From NCBI RefSeq assembly GCF_030687835.1, contig NZ_CP117449.1, positions 5,270,001 to 5,334,000 of the forward strand: DNA of 64,000 nt, read 5' to 3'. The notes under the pieces were generated by a model that ran no database searches, was not told where the DNA came from, and saw only the letters and a program-made list of their open reading frames with translations. The position numbers and the translations under genes were made by a program. Origin of the DNA: Pseudomonas hefeiensis. GTDB lineage: Bacteria; Pseudomonadota; Gammaproteobacteria; Pseudomonadales; Pseudomonadaceae. Position 1 is the stretch's first letter, and every line of letters starts with the position of its first letter. Shown here in pieces: positions 7,876 through 17,660 of this stretch.

Positions 7876-8841
7876 TCAAGTCGACGCTTTCAAATCGACG
7901 CCCAATGCCAGGGCAAATGCTTTCACCAGCGGACTGCGCACGGTGTTGTGACGCAGGATCAGATTAAACGGTGTGCTGATGTGAATGAGGTCCGGCCGCA
8001 AGGCTCGCAATTGCCCTTCAGACACCATCGACGCGGCGTAATGCTGCGGTAGAAAACCCACGAAGCGCCCGGTCTTGATCAGCAGCGCCACGGCTTCCAC
8101 CTGGGTCGCGGAGGCGGAAAAACTGTCGTAGCGGGCAAAATTCAGCTTGTCGCGATGGATCGCGTAGCGATGGTTGATGCACTCGTACTCCTTGAGTACG
8201 TTGCTGCCGATTTCTGCGTCCGGCACCGAGAACAACGGGTGACCGATCGCGCAGTAAACCTCTGAGCGTTCTTCATACAACGTGTAATAGTCGAACTCTT
8301 CGCGCTTCTGATAAACCGGCACGATACCGGCCACCAGGCGTCCCTCTACGACCCCTCTTTCAACCTCATCCAGTTGTGAGGTCTGAAGTTGAAACCTTAC
8401 TTTTGGTGACTCTTTATTTATTCGTTCAAGCGCTGCAACTAACGGTGAATTAATGTCGGAAATAGTATTGTCAATAACGCCCACGCCCAGGTCGCCAACA
8501 AGTTCATTCTGTGCGGAACTAAGCCGATCACGAAAGTTATCGACTGAGGCAAATAAATCAATCGACGCCTGATAGACCAATCGGCCTTCTTCGGTCAGAT
8601 GAAAGCCCTCGCGACCGCGGGTGCACAAGCGCATGCCGATACGAATCTCAAGGTCGGAAATTTGTTTGCTGATGGCCGCCAACCCCACGTTCAGCTCGTT
8701 CTGCGCCGCACTGAAACCGCCAGCCTCGACCACGGCCTTGAACACTTTGAGCAGTTTGAAATCCAGCCCGCTGAGGGCCAGCGGCGCCCGATGCGCCGTT
8801 TTCGGCGCCGGGTTTCCGGAATTGGAAAGTGGGGTTTCCAT
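7876..8841 (-). CDS. LysR family transcriptional regulator, divergent from the ArgH-like cluster
   Basis: A 321-residue LTTR. The winged HTH lies at about residues 25-85 (LLKVFKAVVEAGGFSAAQNELNVGLAAISKQISDLE, then RLCTRGREGFHLTEEG). The rest is the periplasmic-binding-protein-like effector domain with PHYAASMVSEGQLRALRPD near the end. It is transcribed away from the ArgH-like gene across a 296-bp gap, the classic position for an LTTR that controls its divergent neighbour in response to a pathway metabolite. The N-terminal 24 residues (METPLSNSGNPAP) are a disordered-looking extension relative to most LTTRs, so a later start is possible. Confidence 0.93.
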   Translation of the reverse strand: METPLSNSGNPAPKTAHRAPLALSGLDFKLLKVFKAVVEAGGFSAAQNELNVGLAAISKQISDLEIRIGMRLCTRGREGFHLTEEGRLVYQASIDLFASVDNFRDRLSSAQNELVGDLGVGVIDNTISDINSPLVAALERINKESPKVRFQLQTSQLDEVERGVVEGRLVAGIVPVYQKREEFDYYTLYEERSEVYCAIGHPLFSVPDAEIGSNVLKEYECINHRYAIHRDKLNFARYDSFSASATQVEAVALLIKTGRFVGFLPQHYAASMVSEGQLRALRPDLIHISTPFNLILRHNTVRSPLVKAFALALGVDLKAST

Positions 8842-9137
8842 AATGCTTATTTACCTCTGGCGCGCTATTCAACAACCTGTGTCCAACAACAAAAATAAAG
8901 CTGGCCAATAATAATGAACACAGAAAACCAGGCTTGGCAACCGCTAATAATCCCCGTACTTCAGTGCCAACTCACTGACTTCGAACTGCTAAAAGCTGAC
9001 ACTTCGATCAGCTCTCGCAACACTGCAACTGCCCTCTTGAAAACTGCTTAGGCCGAACCACGCCCGAATTATTTCCGGCGGGTGTTCCCGGCTCTTCGCA
9101 TCCATTTCAGTTCGCTTTATCGACGAGGAAAACAACA
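8842..9137. promoter_or_regulatory. Divergent control region between LysR gene and ArgH-like gene
   Basis: A 296-bp AT-richer gap holding promoters for both directions. No single LTTR box stands out by eye. The plus-strand end has the ribosome site CGAGGA followed by the A-rich motif at 9131-9138. Confidence 0.5.
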
Positions 9138-9138
9138 A
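9131..9138 (+). promoter_or_regulatory. Hfq/Crc-type catabolite motif at the start of the ArgH-like gene
   Basis: AACAACAA matches the AANAANAA consensus of the Pseudomonas Hfq/Crc translational repression site. It overlaps the spacer between the GAGGA ribosome site and ATG 9138, where binding would block initiation. This would place the cluster under carbon catabolite repression. Confidence 0.5.
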
Positions 9139-10565
9139 TGTCTCAACCCACCCAACGTCTCTGGGGGGCCCGTTTCAAAAGTGGCCCATCCGAAGCCCTG
9201 GCGGCCCTGTCCCGTTGCCCTGAGCGTTACTTTCGCCTGACCCCGTATGACCTCGCCGGTTCCAAGGCCCATACCCGTGAGCTGCAACGCGCCGGACTGT
9301 TGAGCGAGCAGGAAACCCACACCATGCTCGACGCGCTGGAAGGTATCGGCGCTGATTTTAAAGCCGGCAGCATCACGCCAACGCTGGATGACGAAGACGT
9401 CCACACGTTCATCGAACGCCTGCTGACCGAGCGCCTCGGCCCATTGGGCGGCAAGCTGCGCGCCGGCCGTTCGCGCAACGACCAGACCGCCAACGACCTG
9501 CGTCTGTTTCTGCGCGACCACGTGCGCACCCTGGCCGTCGAAGTACTTGCCTTGCAACAGGCGCTGGTCGATCAGGCCGAACAACACATCGAAAGCATCT
9601 GCCCAGGCTTCACTCACCTGCAACAGGCGCAACCGATCGTCTTTGCTCATCACTTGCTCGCTCACGCCCAATCGATGCTGCGTGACGTGCAACGACTGGT
9701 GGACTGGGACATCCGCACCGCGCTGTCGCCACTCGGCGCCGCCGCCATGGCCGGTTCCGCCATCGCGCGCCTGCCGCAGCAGTCGGCCAGGGAAATGGGT
9801 TACAGCGGCGTCTGCGAAAACTCCATCGATGCGGTGGCCAGCCGCGATCACGTCGCCGAATTCCTGTTTATTGCCAGCATGCTCGGGATCAACATTTCCC
9901 GCCTTGCCGAAGAATTCTGTCTGTGGTCATCGCGGCAATTTCGCTGGGTTGCCCTGGACGATGCCTACGCCACCGGCAGCTCGATCATGCCGCAGAAGAA
10001 AAACCCGGACATTGCCGAACTGGCCCGGGGCAAGGCAGGTCGCCTGATCGGCAACCTCACCGGTCTGCTCTCTACCCTGAAATCGCTGCCGCTGTCATAC
10101 AACCGCGACTTGAGCGAAGACAAAAACGGCGTGCTCGACAGCGTCGACACCTTGCTGCTGGTCCTGCCCGCCATGGCCGGGATGGTCGCGACCATGAAGG
10201 TCAACGTTGAAGAGTTGCGCCGCCAGGCACCGCTCGGGTTCACCCTCGCCACCGAAGTGGCCGACTGGCTGGCGGTGCGCGGCGTGCCGTTCAAGGAAGC
10301 CCATGAAATCACCGGCGCGCTGGTTCAGGCCTGTGAGAAACACGACATCGAGTTGTGGGAAGCCTCGCCGGCGCTGTTGGCCGAAATCGATCCGCGCCTG
10401 ACCCCGGAAGTACGCGACAGCCTGACGCTAGAAGCCGCCATCGCGGCGCGTAGCGGTTGGGGTGGTACCGCGCCGCAGCAGGTGCGCGAGCAGATCGGCC
10501 GGTTGAAAACCGCCCTCGCCGCGCAACACGAATGGACCGAGAACTATCAGGGCTTGCGCCTCTGA
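9138..10565 (+). CDS. Argininosuccinate lyase-like C-N lyase (fumarase/aspartase superfamily)
   Basis: A 475-residue lyase that should split a C-N bond and release fumarate. Superfamily hallmarks are present: RSRNDQ (111-116), GFTHLQQAQP (His160) and the mobile signature loop SSIMPQKKNPD (281-291) with the catalytic serine, then YNRDLSEDK. In the segment that in true ArgH reads roughly GALAGTTYPIDR, this protein has AAMAGSAIARLPQQ, so the amino-substrate pocket is changed. It heads a catabolic cluster with an importer rather than standing with arg genes. EDDS lyase is a precedent for an ArgH homologue acting on an aminocarboxylate. The superfamily is certain; true argininosuccinate activity is doubtful. 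Confidence 0.85.
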   Translation: MSQPTQRLWGARFKSGPSEALAALSRCPERYFRLTPYDLAGSKAHTRELQRAGLLSEQETHTMLDALEGIGADFKAGSITPTLDDEDVHTFIERLLTERLGPLGGKLRAGRSRNDQTANDLRLFLRDHVRTLAVEVLALQQALVDQAEQHIESICPGFTHLQQAQPIVFAHHLLAHAQSMLRDVQRLVDWDIRTALSPLGAAAMAGSAIARLPQQSAREMGYSGVCENSIDAVASRDHVAEFLFIASMLGINISRLAEEFCLWSSRQFRWVALDDAYATGSSIMPQKKNPDIAELARGKAGRLIGNLTGLLSTLKSLPLSYNRDLSEDKNGVLDSVDTLLLVLPAMAGMVATMKVNVEELRRQAPLGFTLATEVADWLAVRGVPFKEAHEITGALVQACEKHDIELWEASPALLAEIDPRLTPEVRDSLTLEAAIAARSGWGGTAPQQVREQIGRLKTALAAQHEWTENYQGLRL

Positions 10566-10583
10566 TAGACAACGCAAAACCCG

Positions 10584-10609
10584 GTAGGCGCTGGCAAGCC
10601 GGCGCCTAC
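10584..10609. repeat. Intergenic palindrome within the operon
   Basis: Perfect arms GTAGGCGC and GCGCCTAC (10584-10591, 10602-10609) around TGGCAAGCCG. It is REP-like and lies between the lyase and permease genes, where it could stabilise or attenuate the transcript. Confidence 0.75.
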
Positions 10610-10654
10610 AAGGAAATGTGGTTGACCTGCAATACCCGTGTTTGGAGAAACAAC

Positions 10655-11533
10655 ATGAGTCAGACTCAGGCAGAACGACTTCAGGCGGAGCGCAAACTGG
10701 CGGAAAACCAGTTTGATATCACCCAGTACGATCACGTGCCACGGCGTTATTACGGGCGGATTTTTTTCGCCACCGTGATCCTCATAGCGATCATCGGCCT
10801 GGTGCGTGCCTTTGCCGAAGGCAAGATCGAATGGTCGTACATCGGCCAGTTCCTCACCTCCCAAGCGATCATGTGGGGCTTGCTCAATACCATCGTCATG
10901 GCCGTGCTGGCGATGGGGCTGGGTATTGTGTTCGGGGTGATCACGGCGATCATGCGCATGTCGGCCAACCCGATCCTGCGTTACGTGGCGGTGACCTACA
11001 CCTGGCTGTTTCGCGGCACGCCGCTGATCCTGCAACTGCTGTTGTGGTTCAACCTGGCGCTGATCTTCCCCACCATCGGCATCCCCGGCGTGTTCGAAAT
11101 GGACACCGTGAGCCTGATGACGCCATTCGCGGCCGCCCTCCTGGGCTTGAGCATCAACCAGGGTGCCTACACCGCCGAAGTGGTGCGCGCCGGTCTGTTG
11201 TCGGTGGACACCGGGCAGTACGAAGCCGCCAAGTCGATCGGCATGCCACGCCTGCAAGCGCTGCGGCGGATCATCCTGCCGCAGGCGATGCGGATCATCA
11301 TTCCGCCGGTCGGCAACGAGTTTATCGGCATGGTGAAAATGACCTCGCTGGCGAGCGTCATCCAGTACTCGGAACTGCTCTACAACGCCCAGAACATCTA
11401 CTACGCCAACGCCCGGGTGATGGAGCTGCTGATCGTCGCGGGTATCTGGTACCTGGCCACCGTCACCGTACTGTCCTTTGGTCAAAGCCGTCTGGAGCGT
11501 CGTTTCGCTCGCGGCGCCGGCAAGCGTTCTTGA
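10655..11533 (+). CDS. Polar amino acid ABC transporter permease
   Basis: A 292-residue HisM/GlnP-family inner-membrane permease. A soluble N-terminus of ~35 residues is followed by a hydrophobic helix ([18 protein letters not shown]) and the BPD_transp_1 core, with [20 protein letters not shown], the family segment [18 protein letters not shown] and the EAA loop [29 protein letters not shown] that docks the ATPase. Start ATG 10655 has GGAG 8 bases upstream; longer frames lack support. It is followed within 11 bp by its ATPase, then the binding protein. Confidence 0.93.
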
Positions 11534-11543
11534 GGAGCCCCCC

Positions 11544-12308
11544 ATGAGAAGCATCGTCAAGGCCGTGAGTCTGAACAAGTATTACGACCAGTTCCACGCG
11601 CTCAAAGACATCAATATCGAAGTCGACCAAGGTGAAGTGCTGTGCATCATCGGCCCGTCCGGCTCCGGTAAAAGCACCTTGTTGCGTTGCGTCAACCAAC
11701 TGGAAAAGATCGACAAGGGCGGCCTGTGGGTCGATGGCGAACTGGTGGGTTACCGCATCGTCGGCAACAAACTGCACGAACTCAACGAGTCCCAGATCGC
11801 CCGTCAACGTCTGTCCACCGGCATGGTGTTCCAGCGTTTCAACCTGTTTCCGCACATGACTGTGCTGCAAAACATCATCGAAGGGCCGTGCCAGGTGCTC
11901 AAGCGTTCGCCCAAAGAGGCGAATGAAGAAGCCCTGGAGTTGCTCGCCCGCGTCGGCCTGACCGACAAGCGCAACAGCTACCCGATCGAGCTTTCGGGTG
12001 GCCAGCAGCAACGCGTCGCCATTGCGCGTGCATTGGCCATGCGCCCCAAGCTGATGCTGTTCGATGAACCCACTTCGGCACTCGACCCGGAACTGGTCGG
12101 TGAGGTGCTGTCGGTGATGCGCGATCTAGCGCAGACCGGCATGACCATGATCGTCGTCACCCATGAACTGGGCTTCGCTCGCGAGGTTTCCAACCGCATG
12201 GTGTTCATGGACGGCGGGCAGATCGTGGAGGCTGGAAGCCCCGAAGAAATACTAATAAGTCCGCAAAACCCTCGCACCCAAAGCTTCATTTCTGCCGTTC
12301 GAACCTAA
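11544..12308 (+). CDS. Amino acid ABC transporter ATP-binding protein
   Basis: A 254-residue GlnQ/HisP-type ATPase powering the adjacent permease. Walker A is GPSGSGKST, the Q-loop lies in [18 protein letters not shown], the signature is LSGGQQQR, Walker B is [14 protein letters not shown] and the H-loop is [12 protein letters not shown] 11544 follows GAGGAG at 11532-11537, which overlaps the stop of the permease gene, so the two are translationally linked. Confidence 0.96.
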
Positions 12309-12347
12309 GCGCCCGTTGGCGCTCACAACACTCAAAAGAGAACGACC

Positions 12348-13172
12348 ATGAAGAACTTCGTAATCCCAGCAGTACTCGCAGGCTTGATGGCCTCCAGCTT
12401 CAGCTTCGCCGCCGAACTGCCGGCCAGCATCAAGGAGAAGGGCGAGATCGTCGTCGCGATCATGCCGAACTATCCGCCGATGGATTTCAAGGACCCGGCC
12501 ACCAACCAGTTGACCGGCCTGGACTATGACCTGGGCAACGCCTTGGCCGAACGCTTGGGCATCAAGATCAAATGGCAGGAAACGGGCTTCGAGCAAATGA
12601 TCAACGCGCTCACCACCGACCGCGTCGACATGGTGCTGTCAGGCATGACCGACACCGCCGAACGTCAGGCCAGCGTGACCTTCGTCGACTACTTCACCAG
12701 CGGTCCGCAGTTCTACACCCTGCAAAAGAACAAAGACACCAACGAGATCGTCGACCTGTGCGGCAAGAAAGTCGGCACCAGCCGCCGCACCACCTTCCCA
12801 TCGGAAATCGCCGAGTGGAGCAAGGCCAACTGCGAAGCAGCGGGTAAACCGGCGATCAACGTGGTGGGCACCGAAGGTTCCGCCGACGCCCGTGCGCAAC
12901 TGCGCCAGAGCCGTATTGACGCGGCGATGCAAGGCAGCGAAACCCTGCCGTACCTCAAGACCCAGGAAAAGGACATGTACAAGACCGTGGGCCTGCCGAT
13001 CTCGTCGCAGTTCACCGGCCTGGGCGTCAGCAAGAAAAAACCGGAGCTCAGCGAAGCGGTGAAAGTCGCGCTGCAGAGCATGATCGACGACGGTAGTTAC
13101 CAGACGATCCTGAAGAAATGGGAGCTGGAGCTGGGCGCGATCAAGACGGCGACCATTAACGCCGGGAAGTAA
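12348..13172 (+). CDS. Amino acid ABC transporter substrate-binding protein
   Basis: A 274-residue periplasmic binding protein (SBP_bac_3 type). The signal peptide is MKNFVIPAVLAGLMASSFSFA; the mature protein begins AELPASIKEKGEIVVAIMPNYPPMDF. The family pocket segments LTGLDYDLGNALAERLGIK, TDRVDMVLSGMTDTAERQ and the hinge region VGTSRRTTFPS are present; the Arg-rich SRRTT is where polar amino-acid binders hold the ligand carboxylate. It completes a permease-ATPase-binding protein set and should deliver the substrate of this catabolic cluster. Confidence 0.94.
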   Translation: MKNFVIPAVLAGLMASSFSFAAELPASIKEKGEIVVAIMPNYPPMDFKDPATNQLTGLDYDLGNALAERLGIKIKWQETGFEQMINALTTDRVDMVLSGMTDTAERQASVTFVDYFTSGPQFYTLQKNKDTNEIVDLCGKKVGTSRRTTFPSEIAEWSKANCEAAGKPAINVVGTEGSADARAQLRQSRIDAAMQGSETLPYLKTQEKDMYKTVGLPISSQFTGLGVSKKKPELSEAVKVALQSMIDDGSYQTILKKWELELGAIKTATINAGK

Positions 13173-13195
13173 ACGCGCAGGCAACCTGAGTCCAA

Positions 13196-13286
13196 TGTGG
13201 GAGCGGGCTTGCTCGCGAATGCAGTGTGTCATTCAACGTCAATGTTGCCTGACTTGACGCCTTCGCGAGCAAGCCCGCTCCCACAA
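13196..13286. repeat. REP doublet (GGAGCGGGCTTGCTCGCGA type)
   Basis: Two inverted copies, TGTGGGAGCGGGCTTGCTCGCGA and its reverse, flank a ~45-bp spacer. Located between the binding-protein gene and the first hydrolase gene. Confidence 0.9.
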
Positions 13287-13324
13287 GGGTCTGGTGTTTG
13301 CAGATAAACAATGGAGCACCACCG

Positions 13325-14167
13325 ATGCCCTCCTTACCCACCTGGCCTGACAAATACAAAGCCTGCCTCGCCCTGGCCTTCGACCTCGACGGCCCCACCG
13401 GCGATGCCATGCTCAACGGCTCGATCTGGCACAAGCCCGAGTACTTCGGTTTCGGTGGCTATGGCCCTTACCGGGCGCTGCCGCGACTGCTCGATCTGCT
13501 CGACGCCTTCCGCATCCCGACCACTTTCTTCGTCCCGGCCTGGGTCGTGGAGAACTGGCCGAAGCAGTGCCAGGCGATTGTCGAGCGCGGGCATGAGGTG
13601 GCGTACCACGGCTACAAACATGAATCCTTTTACGCCCTGACGCTGCAACAGCAGAAGGACGTGATGAAGCGCTGCCGCGAGGTGTTCTGGAACCACCTGA
13701 ACATCCGCGCCGAAGGCTTTCGCACCCCCTCCGGCGACTGGCGCGCCGAGACCCCGGCGATGCTGGTCGAGGCCGGCGTGACCTATTCCAGCAGCATGCG
13801 TGGCGATGACCGCCCGTACCTGGTGAAGGTGCCGGGTTTCGACACGCCCCTGGTGGAGATCCCCGGTCGCTGGGAAATGGATGACTACGCCTCACTGGCC
13901 TATACCCGTGCGCCGGATTTTCCGTCAGGGCTGGATCGCACCGCCAGTTATGAGCTGACCCTGGACAACTGGTGTCGCGAATACGACGGCGCCATGAATG
14001 AAGGCCTGTGCCTGACCACCCTGTTCCATCCCAAGATCACCGGCAAGCCGGGACGCATCCTGCTGCTGGAAAAACTCTTCGAACACATGCGCCAGCGCAA
14101 CGACGTGTGGTTTGCCACTTGCCGCGATGTCGCGCAGTGGTGGCTCAAGGAGCATCACCATGGCTGA
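13325..14167 (+). CDS. Polysaccharide-deacetylase-fold hydrolase, PuuE/imidase-like
   Basis: A 280-residue NodB-fold enzyme. Metal-site motif 1 is AFDLDGP, motif 2 is GHEVAYHGYKH, motif 3 is FRTPSGDW, and the late LFHP supplies the catalytic histidine. The GHEVxxHG form and the lack of a signal peptide are typical of the cytoplasmic branch that includes allantoinase PuuE and cyclic-imide hydrolase, which open cyclic amides, rather than of chitin or peptidoglycan deacetylases. ATG 13325 has GGAG 9 bases upstream. Its 3' end overlaps the next gene by 8 bp. The exact substrate is unknown. Confidence 0.85.
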   Translation: MPSLPTWPDKYKACLALAFDLDGPTGDAMLNGSIWHKPEYFGFGGYGPYRALPRLLDLLDAFRIPTTFFVPAWVVENWPKQCQAIVERGHEVAYHGYKHESFYALTLQQQKDVMKRCREVFWNHLNIRAEGFRTPSGDWRAETPAMLVEAGVTYSSSMRGDDRPYLVKVPGFDTPLVEIPGRWEMDDYASLAYTRAPDFPSGLDRTASYELTLDNWCREYDGAMNEGLCLTTLFHPKITGKPGRILLLEKLFEHMRQRNDVWFATCRDVAQWWLKEHHHG

Positions 14168-15047
14168 TTCGGTTTTCTGGCCCCAGGGCTACCGCTGCGC
14201 TGTCGTGTTGACGGTCGACTACAACGACATCCACGGCATTCTCACCCAGGCCCCGGAAGTCGCCGGACGCGACAAGACCCTCTCCGTGTGGCGCTACGGC
14301 ACACAACGGGGTGTCGAGCGCCTGTTGGGGCTGTTCGACGAACTGAAGGTGTGCAGCAGTTGGTTCATTCCCGGCATCGTTGCCGAAGAAAACCCGCAGC
14401 ACATCCAGGCGATTCAAGCAGGCGGGCACGAGATTGCCTGCGCCGGTTATCGCCACTGCAACTACGACACCCTCGATCTGGCGCAGCAGCGTGACGAAGT
14501 CGCCCGAGGGTGTGCAGCGTTGCAGGCGCTGACCGGCCAGCGCCCCAGCGGTTTTCGCATCCCCGCCGGCAATGGCGCACCGGGGTTCATCGAGGCCTTG
14601 GGCGAACACGGTATAAGCTGGTCGTCGTCATGGCGTGGCGATGATTTGCCTTTCGCTCACCCCACGGCACCCGGGATTATCGAACTGCCGTTGCACTATG
14701 AACTGGAGGACGAGCCCTACTTCGCCTTCAACCTGAGCCCGGCGGTGCCGCCTGCGCAATCGCGGATCGCTTCCTACAGTCACACGCTGGGCAATCTGCA
14801 AATGGACTTCGCCGGGTTTCACCGCTTTGGCCTGTGTTACCTGCTGCGCCTGCATCCCGAGATCATCGGCACGCCCGGGCGGATCGGCGTGTTGCGCGAG
14901 CTGCTGCAGGGCATCCAGCAGCACGATGATGTATGGATCGCCCAAGGTTGCGAAGTCGCCCAATGGTGGGCGGACTCGGCGCTGCCAACGGCCAGCGATC
15001 ACCCCGCCTCGGTGTACGAGCGGCACTATCGGGACTACCTGCTATGA
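14160..15047 (+). CDS. Second polysaccharide-deacetylase-fold protein, paralogue with altered motifs
   Basis: A 295-residue relative of the upstream hydrolase. It keeps LTVDYNDIHG (motif 1 Asp), GGHEIACAGYRH, FRIPAGN and LRLHPEIIG, but the usual HG of motif 2 is AG, so one expected metal-site position is not His. It may still be active with other ligands or act as a partner subunit of its neighbour. No signal peptide. ATG 14160 overlaps the upstream stop, and its own stop overlaps the next start as ATGA (15044-15047), so the three genes are translationally coupled. Confidence 0.82.
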   Translation: MADSVFWPQGYRCAVVLTVDYNDIHGILTQAPEVAGRDKTLSVWRYGTQRGVERLLGLFDELKVCSSWFIPGIVAEENPQHIQAIQAGGHEIACAGYRHCNYDTLDLAQQRDEVARGCAALQALTGQRPSGFRIPAGNGAPGFIEALGEHGISWSSSWRGDDLPFAHPTAPGIIELPLHYELEDEPYFAFNLSPAVPPAQSRIASYSHTLGNLQMDFAGFHRFGLCYLLRLHPEIIGTPGRIGVLRELLQGIQQHDDVWIAQGCEVAQWWADSALPTASDHPASVYERHYRDYLL

Positions 15048-16393
15048 CCGAGCGCCTGCAGCGACTGGCGCAGTTCTGCGTCGACACCCGCTTCGAAGAC
15101 TTGCCAGCGGCACTGGTGGCGCAAGCCAAGCGGCACATCCTCGATACGTTCGGGGCGGCATTGGCCGGCGCGGACAGCGACGTCGCACGGCAGGCACGTC
15201 AGGTCTTCGAGGGTGAAACCGGCAGCAACCTGGTCTGGGGCACCAACCTGCGACTCGGCGCCGCCCAGACGGCGATGCTCAACGGTGTCGCCGCGCATGC
15301 GCTGGAACTGGACGACACCGGTGGCTGCGACCACTCCGGGGCGGTGGTCCTGCCGGCGGCGATGGCCGCGGTGTCGATGGCACCCGGAACGGTCAACGGT
15401 CGTGAGCTGATCACGGCCGTGGTGCTTGGCTATGAAGTCGGTCGCCGGGTGCTCGAAGCCTGCGGCGGCTATTCGGCGCACAACGGCGCGGGGTGGCATT
15501 CCACTGCAACCTGCGGGGTGTTCGGCGCGGCAGCCGCCAGTGCGCGCATCCTGCGACTGGACGCCGGGCAAACGCTCGCTGCGCTTGGCATTGCCGGCAG
15601 TTTCAGTGGGGGCCTGTGGGCATTCATCCATGACGGTTCGCAAAGCAAGAAGCTGCACAGCGGCCGTGCGGCTGAAGGAGGATTGCTGGCCGCGCGGTTT
15701 GCCCAGCAGGGCATCACCGGGCCGACCAGGCTGTTCGATGACGTCTGGGGCGGTTTTCTCAAGACCCTGGCCGGGCAGACGGCAGAACCGCAAGCGCTGG
15801 ACGCGGATCTCGGATCGGTGTGGAAACTCGCACGCTGCTCGATCAAGCCCTATGCCTCGTGCCGTGGCACCCATTCGGCCATCGATGCGCTGGGGTTGCT
15901 GCTGGATCAGTTGCAAGTCGGCGCCGATCAGGTAGAAGACATTCAGGTGTCGTTGTGCGGGTTTCTGCAGGACATGTGCGGTGGCCAGGATGTCAGCACG
16001 CTGCCGGCGGCGCAGATGAGCCTGCCTTACGCCTTGGCGGCGCGGCTGGTGCACGGCCATTGCGGACTTGAAGCCTATGATGAGACCGCGCGCCGCGACC
16101 CGCGGATTGACCGCTGGCTGTCGCGCATTCGCCTTGAAGTGGACCCGCTACGGTCAGAGGATGGCGAACCTGTGGTCTGCGTGCGGACCGTGGACGGTCG
16201 GCAGGCGCGGCTGTGCGTCGATCCGCCCTTGGGTGCGCCAGCCAATCCGTTGAGCGATGCGGCGCTGGAGCAGAAATTTTTCAGCCTGGCGGAGCGAGTG
16301 ATGCCGCGGGTGCAGGCTGAGGCGTTGCGGGGGCAATTGGCGCGGCTGGAAACGCTGGAGTCGGTTGGACTGCTCGAGCAGTGGTTGGGTTGA
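15044..16393 (+). CDS. MmgE/PrpD family protein (epimerase/dehydratase-like)
   Basis: A 449-residue MmgE/PrpD member. Family features are HALELDDTGGCDHSGAVVLPAAMAA, the all-alpha N-terminal domain with HSTATCGVFGAAAASARIL, SQSKKLHSGRAAEGGLLAARFAQQGITGP, and KPYASCRGTHSAIDAL. The family covers 2-methylcitrate dehydratase, cis-aconitate decarboxylase and iminodisuccinate epimerase; the HSGAVVLPA form and the absence of prpB/prpC argue against propionate catabolism. Next to an ArgH-like C-N lyase, an epimerase role on an N-succinyl amino acid is an attractive inference. Starts at ATGA overlap with the upstream gene. Confidence 0.88.
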   Translation: MTERLQRLAQFCVDTRFEDLPAALVAQAKRHILDTFGAALAGADSDVARQARQVFEGETGSNLVWGTNLRLGAAQTAMLNGVAAHALELDDTGGCDHSGAVVLPAAMAAVSMAPGTVNGRELITAVVLGYEVGRRVLEACGGYSAHNGAGWHSTATCGVFGAAAASARILRLDAGQTLAALGIAGSFSGGLWAFIHDGSQSKKLHSGRAAEGGLLAARFAQQGITGPTRLFDDVWGGFLKTLAGQTAEPQALDADLGSVWKLARCSIKPYASCRGTHSAIDALGLLLDQLQVGADQVEDIQVSLCGFLQDMCGGQDVSTLPAAQMSLPYALAARLVHGHCGLEAYDETARRDPRIDRWLSRIRLEVDPLRSEDGEPVVCVRTVDGRQARLCVDPPLGAPANPLSDAALEQKFFSLAERVMPRVQAEALRGQLARLETLESVGLLEQWLG

Positions 16394-16472
16394 AACTTTT
16401 ATTGCCTGCTCGCGATGGCAGTACCTCGGCGCAAACACACACTAAAAATGGAATAAGGATATCTGCCCCACC

Positions 16473-17660
16473 GTGGCCACTTACTCGCTCGTCATCCGCC
16501 GCCTGATGATCGCTTCACTGACCATCGTCGTCAGCCGCGCCATTACCAGCCCGTTGCTCACCCTGTTCCTGAGCAACAAACTCGGTCTCAACCAACAGGA
16601 CGTCGGTTTGTTGCTGGGCATCGCGGTGTTCATCGCCACCCTGCTCGCGCTCTACGGCGGCTACATCATCGATCGCCTGGAGAAACGCCGGTTGCTGATC
16701 CTGACCATGCTCTCCAGCGCCATCGGATTCGTACTGCTGACCTTCGCCCAGAACCTCTACCTGACTACCCTGACCCTGGTGATCACCGAAACCGCGTCGG
16801 CCCTGTTCCTGATCGGTTCCAAGGCGATCCTCAGCGAGAACCTGCCCGTGGGCCAGCGGGCCAAGGCGTTTTCCCTGCGCTACACCCTTACCAATATCGG
16901 CTACGCCATCGGCCCGATGCTCGGCGTGGTGATTGCCGGGGTGTACCCGATTGCGCCGTTCCTGATTGCCGGCGCCATCGCTTTCGGCAGCATCTTCCTG
17001 ATGAGCGGCATTCCCAGCGACTCGGCCCCGGCCCCCGCGATCGGCCAGCCACAGAGTTTTCTGAAGACCCTGGTGACCCTGAAAAACGACCGCACGCTGA
17101 TCATGTTCACCTGCGGCTGCCTGCTCAGTACCGTGGTCCATGGGCGTTTTACCCTGTACCTGTCGCAATACCTGCTGGTGGTCGAGGACTCCCAGCGCGC
17201 GCTGCAAACCATGGCCGCCCTGCTCGCCTGCAATGCGATTGCGGTGATCCTGCTGCAATACCAGATAGGCCGCTTTCTCAAGCGCGAACAGCTACGTTAC
17301 TGGATCGCCGGTGGCACCAGCCTTTTCATCCTCGGTTTGATCGGCTTTAGCCTGGCCGACAGCCTGGTGTCCTGGTGCGTGGCGATGTTCATTTTCACCC
17401 TCGGCGAGATGATCATTTACCCTGCCGAGTTCCTCTTCGTTGACACCCTGGCTCCGGAAGAACTGCGCGGCAGCTACTACGGCGCGCAAAACCTCGCGGC
17501 CCTGGGCGGCGCGTTGAGCCCGGTGATCTGCGGCTTCCTGCTCATGCACACCCAAGCGCCAACGATGTTCTATGCCTTGAGCTTGTTGACCGCGCTGGGC
17601 GGCACACTGTGCTTCATGAGTGGTCGGCGAGTGGCGTTAAAGCAAAATAACTCACTTTAG
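16473..17660 (+). CDS. MFS transporter
   Basis: A 395-residue major-facilitator protein with about 12 hydrophobic helices. After the second helix comes YGGYIIDRLEKRRLLIL, the loop 2-3 motif. GTG 16473 is taken as start, though AAGGAT lies rather far upstream; ATG 16506 is an alternative that would cut into helix 1. It follows the MmgE/PrpD gene by 79 bp on the same strand and could export a product or be a second uptake route for the cluster substrate. Confidence 0.85.
   Translation: MATYSLVIRRLMIASLTIVVSRAITSPLLTLFLSNKLGLNQQDVGLLLGIAVFIATLLALYGGYIIDRLEKRRLLILTMLSSAIGFVLLTFAQNLYLTTLTLVITETASALFLIGSKAILSENLPVGQRAKAFSLRYTLTNIGYAIGPMLGVVIAGVYPIAPFLIAGAIAFGSIFLMSGIPSDSAPAPAIGQPQSFLKTLVTLKNDRTLIMFTCGCLLSTVVHGRFTLYLSQYLLVVEDSQRALQTMAALLACNAIAVILLQYQIGRFLKREQLRYWIAGGTSLFILGLIGFSLADSLVSWCVAMFIFTLGEMIIYPAEFLFVDTLAPEELRGSYYGAQNLAALGGALSPVICGFLLMHTQAPTMFYALSLLTALGGTLCFMSGRRVALKQNNSL

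Follow-up and report, generated by a model that had tools for sequence, protein, structure and literature searches.

A conserved bacterial gene cluster that joins an ArgH-derived lyase to a NodB-fold pair and an MmgE/PrpD protein, with a predicted role in the catabolism of masked N-succinyl amines

Agrobacterium BY6 reportedly catabolizes iminodisuccinate (IDS) by means of an IDS epimerase, a member of the MmgE/PrpD family, and a C-N lyase. Ethylenediaminedisuccinate (EDDS) lyase (6g3d) is a homologue of the argininosuccinate lyase (ASL) ArgH that cleaves N-succinyl amines. Another fumarate-releasing lyase, 2SL, belongs to the yxe loci (B. subtilis, E. italicus and D. dadantii), which, according to PMC9706529, encode an importer, an acetyltransferase, a deacetylase, YxeQ and nearly always either 2SL or the monooxygenase YxeK; YxeQ appears among the listed relatives of an MmgE/PrpD-type protein in PMC8752978. 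Here, we describe a gene cluster of Pseudomonas hefeiensis located in a 64,000-nucleotide stretch of DNA (hereafter the window; bases 5270001 to 5334000 of a 6.45-Mb single-contig genome). The cluster encodes an ArgH-type lyase, an amino-acid-type ABC importer consisting of a permease, an ATPase and a substrate-binding protein (SBP), two NodB-fold proteins (NodB1 and NodB2) and an MmgE/PrpD-family protein (MmgE). These genes form a conserved unit, of which we found no description among the papers listed by searches of open-access PMC. We give about even credence to the reading that the operon imports a masked N-substituted aspartate and catabolizes it to fumarate plus an amine.

By analogy, the nearest known logic would be that of the yxe/2SL and IDS pathways. 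Like the yxe operon, the window cluster combines an importer and an MmgE/PrpD-like protein with an exchangeable fumarate-releasing lyase. In contrast to the yxe operon, it has two NodB proteins where yxe has acetyltransferase and deacetylase genes (YxeL and YxeP), and none of the YxeL-, YxeP-, 2SL- or YxeK-type families was found in the ten window genes scanned. The BY6 pathway (2hp0 and 2hp3) shares the pairing of an MmgE/PrpD epimerase with a C-N lyase, to which the window cluster adds two amidohydrolases and an importer. A search with B. subtilis 7bra gave matches in 7 of the 148 genomes in the taxonomic order of genome G492, and five loci were compared. In three of them (L190, L193 and L194), all yxe-like, a lyase gene accompanies importer genes, an MmgE-type gene and a gene that by its sequence is GNAT-like. 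Both lyases that were scanned (L190 and L194) are PurB-type proteins with an ADSL_C domain, whereas the window lyase has ASL_C2. The window cluster thus follows the same module plan with a lyase lineage of its own and a NodB pair.

In other species, families and phyla, the gene set recurs with protein identities of approximately 36 to 98%. Within the genus, MmgE matched 49 of 119 genomes at E ≤ 1e-40, and 20 genomes (that of P. hefeiensis included) carry an MmgE orthologue of at least 57% identity, one of them in two pieces. The lyase, importer, NodB1, NodB2 and MmgE genes are identically ordered in 18 of the 19 same-genus clusters from other genomes; the 19th (L042) starts at a contig end within the cluster. 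A phylum scan with NodB1 gave matches in 7 of 398 genomes, again including P. hefeiensis, and a class scan found the P. hefeiensis genome only (1 of 369). The cluster is therefore rare and patchily distributed. All seven genes are present in each of the five clusters from outside the genus that the phylum scan returned. In the alphaproteobacterial cluster L070, the lyase gene is of another type and lies at the end of the cluster.

Co-occurrence of the enzyme families in other genomes, which the initial annotation of the window had named as a check, was borne out by a scan of one genome per species. The scan yielded 358 NodB1 relatives, and the 80 most similar to a Mesorhizobium sequence were taken as loci. 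NodB2 adjoins NodB1 in 79 of these 80 loci (the exception, L102, ends at a contig edge), and MmgE lies downstream in 73 of the 75 that could be assessed (the exceptions are L111 and L153). Where there is room on both sides (67 loci), an ArgH-type lyase is present in 63 and a full importer in 65. The loci belong to Hyphomicrobiales, Burkholderiales, Pseudomonas, Salinicola, Halotalea, Marinomonas, Pantoea and one Micromonospora contig (70.6% GC). Loci of 21 MmgE paralogues from the same genus (31 to 36% identity) served as a control. None of these loci has NodB1 or NodB2, and none has a lyase match above 150 bits; in one (L212), a weak lyase match of 134 bits lies roughly 7 kb away, and an importer surrounds MmgE in three. 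The gene set is thus a real conserved unit, with co-occurrence beyond chance.

Some loci show further arrangements of MmgE genes. The MmgE gene of L056 (G087, 9099 to 9803), a cluster counted among the 18 above, covers only residues 1 to 138 and 325 to 436 of the window protein, and the other cluster genes are present despite the absence of the middle part. In L153 (Pseudomonas viridiflava p23.C6), the lyase, importer, NodB1 and NodB2 genes are present and no MmgE was detected downstream. Distant MmgE paralogues in L210, L211 and L214 are embedded in other operons for amino-acid ABC importers (genes for an SBP, MmgE, two permeases and an ATPase) that have no NodB or lyase matches, possibly a second epimerase-plus-importer system.

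The window lyase scores 528 bits against TIGR00838 (cut-off, 279.5), is 43% identical to the ArgH of its own genome and resembles ArgH (6iem and 2e9f) in sequence, domain layout and fumarate-side motifs. It is far closer to Mycobacterium tuberculosis ASL (6iem, 505.7 bits) than to EDDS lyase (6g3d, 200.7 bits). We therefore rejected EDDS lyase proper as an assignment, and the likeness to that enzyme drawn in the initial annotation is not supported in detail. That annotation had also considered that the genome might have no other argH; a separate, higher-scoring ArgH homologue was found in each of the 10 cluster genomes examined. Given this better homologue and the catabolic gene context, an ordinary second argH for arginine synthesis was rejected as well.

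Two types of lyase occur in the clusters. Among the 67 loci assessable on both sides, the window type occurs in 36 and an alpha type in 27, never together, and 4 have neither. The alpha-type gene sits after MmgE in Hyphomicrobiales and some other taxa, and the L070 lyase is 52% identical to the genuine ArgH of the window genome and 40% identical to the window lyase. The genome that holds the L067 cluster encodes a second window-type lyase elsewhere (L180; G364:C66). A tree of 42 rows places the 20 window-type rows with M. tuberculosis ArgH (support, 100/100) and the 10 alpha-type rows with ArgH of Pseudomonas and other Gammaproteobacteria, taken in the broad sense (support, 99/96). Forcing both types into one clade is rejected (approximately unbiased [AU] test, delta lnL = 92.9, p-AU = 3e-88). 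The exact sister groups are less certain than this rejection, because two outlying rows (L181 and L182), present in the first tree, were dropped before the test and long branches were flagged. ArgH was recruited to the cluster twice, independently.

The fumarate-side motifs SRNDQ, THLQ and GSSIMPQK are intact in both lyase types, and the next Lys after GSSIMPQK is Arg in 9 of the 10 alpha-type rows. Compared with a reference of 12 ArgH rows, 18 positions are invariant in ArgH and altered in one or both types. Eight of these lie near the N-terminus or around positions 27 to 31 and 321 to 330; the other ten are scattered. The window type is altered at positions 30, 31 (Asp to Tyr or Phe, once His), 326 (Gln to Ser, Ala or Gly) and 330, and the alpha type at 12, 27, 30, 321 (Tyr to Phe), 328 and 330. 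Position 27 is Ser in 17 of the 20 window-type rows and has changed to Cys in the window lyase itself. From delta-crystallin and ASL structures, we take positions 27, 321, 326 and 329 to contact the substrate and position 31 to lie close by. Of the presumed amine-side set (27, 30, 31, 321, 326, 328 and 330), the window lyase keeps only 321 and 328. Because the motifs are kept and the altered positions fall among these presumed contacts, the fumarate half appears intact and the amine half appears remodelled, differently in each type. The amine released by the lyase is probably not arginine, and an enzyme publicly labeled argininosuccinate lyase probably has a different job.

The closest solved relative of MmgE is IDS epimerase (2hp3, E = 3e-37), followed by bsIRG1. 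We compared the residues named for these two proteins (bsIRG1 numbering) in PMC7347537. Equivalents of H102, H151, K266 and C271, and of the Lys in the MKPLH segment (K200 in that paper, 199 by our recount), are present in 10 of 10 aligned cluster MmgE proteins. The D91 equivalent is Glu in all ten, a conservative change. In the same ten proteins, R100 aligns to a two-residue gap and Y146 is replaced by Asn. MmgE thus retains the acid-base histidines of IDS epimerase and has lost two of its substrate residues. Since the R100 and Y146 equivalents are absent, we rejected IDS epimerase proper; IDS is an unlikely substrate, and the likeness to IDS epimerase put forward in the initial annotation is not supported as far as the substrate is concerned. 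The retained residues suggest that MmgE has likely kept its chemistry at the carbon next to a carboxylate and changed its substrate. A scan of plasmids for IDS epimerase returned nothing above 38.5% identity.

Among nine orthologues, NodB1 has the invariant residues D20, D22, H95, H99, R133 and H235, with the Asp and the HxxxH motif intact. In NodB2, the first His of motif 2 is absent in 25 of 25 orthologues, and the second is kept in 21 of the 25, the window copy among them. The best NCBIfam model for both proteins is that of PuuE allantoinase (TIGR03212), with 78.5 bits for NodB1 and 94.4 bits for NodB2, under a cut-off of 424.6. Structure models of NodB1 and NodB2 (mean predicted local distance difference test scores, 80.9 and 80.2) both match 3rxz, HP0310, PuuE and 3s6o at E < 1e-15, and all other structures, carbohydrate enzymes included, match at E 1e-9 or weaker. 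The nearest folds are 3rxz, HP0310 and PuuE for NodB1 and 3rxz and PuuE for NodB2, in agreement with the earlier placement of the pair in the imidase/PuuE branch of the NodB fold. Identity to the nearest solved structures is only 21 to 31%, and, unlike the described members of the branch, the window has a pair of neighboring paralogues, of which NodB2 has an incomplete metal site. According to PMC9304392, HP0310 and PuuE are related to HxnM/AAY98498 and the P. putida YZ-26 imidase, which are cyclic imidases. Because the nearest folds belong to this branch, ring opening is preferred over polysaccharide deacetylation; the fold models favor it without proving it.

In the SBP, the Asp of the AncQR "vvtD" segment aligns to a gap. 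We assume that this Asp holds the amino group of the ligand in SBP relatives, and its absence is consistent with a substrate whose amine is masked. The motifs QG-x-ET and SRRT are present in 8 of 8 and 7 of 8 SBP orthologues, respectively. A second family-3 SBP gene, whose product is 38 to 49% identical to the window SBP, lies downstream of MmgE in 11 Burkholderiales clusters (L121, L124, L136, L137, L143, L144, L148, L150, L154, L155 and L159).

Four loci from metagenome-assembled genomes (MAGs) labeled Chloroflexota (L109, L110, L111 and L117) have, downstream of NodB1-NodB2, a flavoprotein of the DAO family (family scanned in L109 and L117) that is akin to glycine and sarcosine oxidases. 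MmgE was not detected in L111, and L117 has neither a lyase nor an importer within 10 kb upstream. If the amine oxidase stands in for the lyase in these loci, the final target would be an oxidisable amine C-N bond.

Under the catabolic reading introduced above, the substrate would be an N-(2-succinyl) amine that lacks a free alpha-ammonium group, most likely in the form of a closed ring (a lactam, an imide or a hydantoin-like ring) or of an N-acyl derivative. The ABC importer would bring the compound into the cell. NodB1, as a metal-dependent amidohydrolase, with NodB2 as a partner or second hydrolase, would open the C-N amide bond, MmgE would epimerize the succinyl carbon, and the lyase would beta-eliminate fumarate and free the amine. 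The LysR protein encoded beside the lyase would probably sense the substrate. The initial annotation had already proposed the breakdown of an N-succinyl compound or its cyclic form to fumarate and an amine; this is still the best general inference, and its IDS and EDDS details are unsupported. Tentatively, we further propose that the clusters represent an undescribed and widespread pathway for ring-closed N-succinyl amines, in which NodB1 and NodB2 form a two-subunit cyclic-amide hydrolase, MmgE founds a new MmgE/PrpD epimerase subfamily, ArgH was turned at least twice into a new C-N lyase and an amine oxidase replaces it in a third lineage.

Several points weigh against this interpretation. 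The enzyme activities and the class of substrate are all predicted from sequence. The choice between a cyclic and an acyl form of the substrate is based on fold kinship, and the hydrolases may instead carry out N-deacetylation of the CE4 type. MmgE/PrpD proteins also dehydrate or decarboxylate, and D91 is Glu here. The double recruitment of ArgH could also point to a guanidino substrate. No more than 1.3 kb precedes NodB1 in the MAG loci L109 to L111, which may therefore have a lyase further upstream. L114, L116, L146 and L159 also have no nearby lyase; in L114 and L116, which come from alphaproteobacterial MAGs, a RidA-family gene and an aldehyde dehydrogenase gene are nearby. Paracoccus seriniphilus has the importer, NodB1, NodB2 and MmgE, with neither a lyase nor a DAO-type oxidase within 20.8 kb. 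Finally, the 80 best-ranked loci are not a random sample.

If the proposed function is right, the cluster would add a new branch to the salvage of nitrogen and carbon in Pseudomonas, Burkholderia, Caballeronia, Rhizobium, Mesorhizobium, Pantoea and their relatives, a group with many plant- or soil-linked members. The database listings examined name the cluster lyases argininosuccinate lyase and the hydrolases polysaccharide deacetylase, and both labels would be misnomers at these loci. The two ArgH lineages, which occupy the same pathway slot with different changes, would provide a natural experiment in enzyme evolution. Together with the yxe and IDS systems, the cluster suggests a general module made of an importer, an MmgE/PrpD protein and an exchangeable enzyme that cleaves a C-N or C-S bond.

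The descent of both lyase types from ArgH would also suit scavenging of argininosuccinate or its cyclic anhydrides, which are imidazolone and pyrimidinone rings. NodB1 and NodB2 would open the two ring forms, MmgE would fix the stereochemistry, and the lyase would yield arginine and fumarate. The lyase-less Paracoccus cluster adjoins arginase and ornithine cyclodeaminase genes, an agmatinase-like gene (named from sequence) lies near the G492 cluster, and the SBP scores with the Lys/Arg/Orn model (134.5 bits; cut-off, 256). We nevertheless consider this route rather unlikely: ArgH-invariant residues presumed, from delta-crystallin work, to be on the arginine side are altered in both types, and the 10 genomes already carry ArgH. 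Moreover, the Paracoccus arginase and cyclodeaminase genes are divergent with an Lrp gene between, and no such group is among the 45 recurrent groups listed from an all-against-all comparison of flanking open reading frames (ORFs) of 110 loci. Another alternative is that aminopolycarboxylate chelators as such (IDS, EDDS or toxin A/aspergillomarasmine) are degraded by an EDDS-lyase-like step and an IDS-type epimerase. The nearest solved relative of MmgE and the ArgH homology of EDDS lyase agree with this, as does the use of EDDS lyase to make the fungal toxin A, mentioned in PMC10792612. It is unlikely, given that the R100 and Y146 equivalents common to IDS epimerase and bsIRG1 are lost, that IDS requires no amidohydrolase and that the window lyase sides with ASL; it has THLQ at the place where the numbering of EDDS lyase (PMC12363623), matched by a constant offset, puts Gln159. 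Toxin A/aspergillomarasmine is the least excluded part of this alternative.

A yxe-like route for S-(2-succino) adducts, for example, N-acetylated S-(2-succino)cysteine that a NodB protein would deacetylate, would share the logic of an importer, an MmgE/PrpD-like protein, an N-acyl hydrolase, a fumarate-releasing lyase and an exchangeable cleaving enzyme. We regard it as very unlikely, because the window cluster has no acetyltransferase, the PurB-type lyases of L190 and L194 are of a different branch and a replacement amine oxidase misfits a C-S bond. That oxidase would also be an improbable replacement for the lyase step of a ureide or hydantoin route, in which NodB1 and NodB2 would convert hydantoin-5-acetate or dihydroorotate-like rings into N-carbamoyl-aspartate, from which the lyase would release urea and fumarate. 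With no urease or carbamoylase group recognized by eye among the 45 listed flank groups, this route is highly improbable, even though both NodB proteins score best, far under the cut-off, with the NCBIfam model of PuuE allantoinase. The prospect that the cluster is biosynthetic, with the lyase adding an amine to fumarate and the other enzymes shaping a chelator or signal, is remote. PMC9706529 describes 2SL, a lyase class I enzyme, as reversible and kinetically favoring synthesis; on the other side stand the binding-protein-dependent importer of nearly all assessable loci, the divergent LysR arrangement and the lack of an exporter common to clusters outside the near clade.

As to the layout of the locus (Table 1), gene starts were picked using upstream sequence. 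The seven core genes occupy 9138 to 16393 on the + strand. The eight genes from the lyase through a major facilitator superfamily (MFS) gene have the strand, order and overlaps given in the initial annotation, and its family calls match Pfam and NCBIfam. The intergenic distances are, in order, 89, 10, 39, 152, -8, -4 and 79 bp. The tight packing claimed earlier is therefore confined to permease-ATPase-SBP and NodB1-NodB2-MmgE, and the remaining gaps are of 89, 152 and 79 bp. NodB1 and NodB2 share an 8-bp overlap and NodB2 and MmgE a 4-bp ATGA overlap, by which the three genes are linked. An inverted repeat, which we take to be REP-like, occupies most of the 152-bp gap.

Table 1. Features of the cluster and its immediate flanks (window coordinates)
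Feature	Position	Strand	Family or remark
LysR-type regulator	7876..8841	-	PF00126 + PF03466; divergent from operon
Inverted repeat TCAGTG-N6-CACTGA, candidate LysR site	8961..8978		In LysR/lyase intergenic region
ArgH-type lyase, 475 aa	9138..10565	+	Lyase_1 + ASL_C2/TIGR00838; predicted fumarate release from N-succinyl compound
PAAT (amino-acid-type) ABC importer permease	10655..11533	+	PF00528/BPD_transp_1; HEQRo_perm_3TM above cut-off
ABC importer ATPase	11544..12308	+	PF00005/ABC_tran; GlnQ/EhuA-like, under the cut-offs of those models
Periplasmic binding protein, family 3 (SBP)	12348..13172	+	PF00497/SBP_bac_3
Inverted repeat, 49-nt arms, 78% complementary	13189..13292		Between importer and hydrolase genes; outside core
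NodB1, NodB-fold hydrolase, complete D/HxxxH metal-ligand pattern	13325..14167	+	PF01522/Polysacc_deac_1
NodB2, NodB-fold paralogue, incomplete metal-ligand pattern	14160..15047	+	PF01522/Polysacc_deac_1
MmgE/PrpD-family protein, predicted epimerase	15044..16393	+	PF03972 + PF19305 (MmgE_PrpD_N/C)
MFS transporter, YdeE-like	16473..17660	+	MFS_1; NF007472; adjoins core, outside it

The divergent LysR gene, which was missing from the initial annotation, belongs to the unit. A LysR relative lies beside the lyase gene in 17 of the 19 same-genus clusters, 15 of them at 80 to 93% identity and two at 51 to 52%. An alignment of 16 sequences of the region between the LysR and lyase genes shows 221 of 296 positions conserved in at least 80% of them, and the candidate LysR site falls inside this conserved region.

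The MFS gene, in contrast, had been counted as a cluster member and is not one. Its product, akin to YdeE efflux transporters, scores 224 bits against NF007472 (cut-off, 582). The gene is present in 16 of the 19 same-genus clusters and was not detected in the three most diverged Pseudomonas clusters nor in any of the five clusters from outside the genus; we therefore rejected it as a core gene. In the clusters examined, only those of the near Pseudomonas clade retain it next to the operon, and it may be an independent gene.

Besides LysR, the 45 listed flank groups, in which we sought additional pathway genes, consist for the most part of ORFs that are antisense or limited to one clade. Two groups, one of aldehyde dehydrogenases and one of MFS proteins, are each found in 10 of the 110 loci. 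In three diverged Pseudomonas clusters (L053 to L055), genes that resemble, by sequence, those of an MFS transporter, methylmalonate-semialdehyde dehydrogenase and 3-hydroxyisobutyrate dehydrogenase lie nearby.

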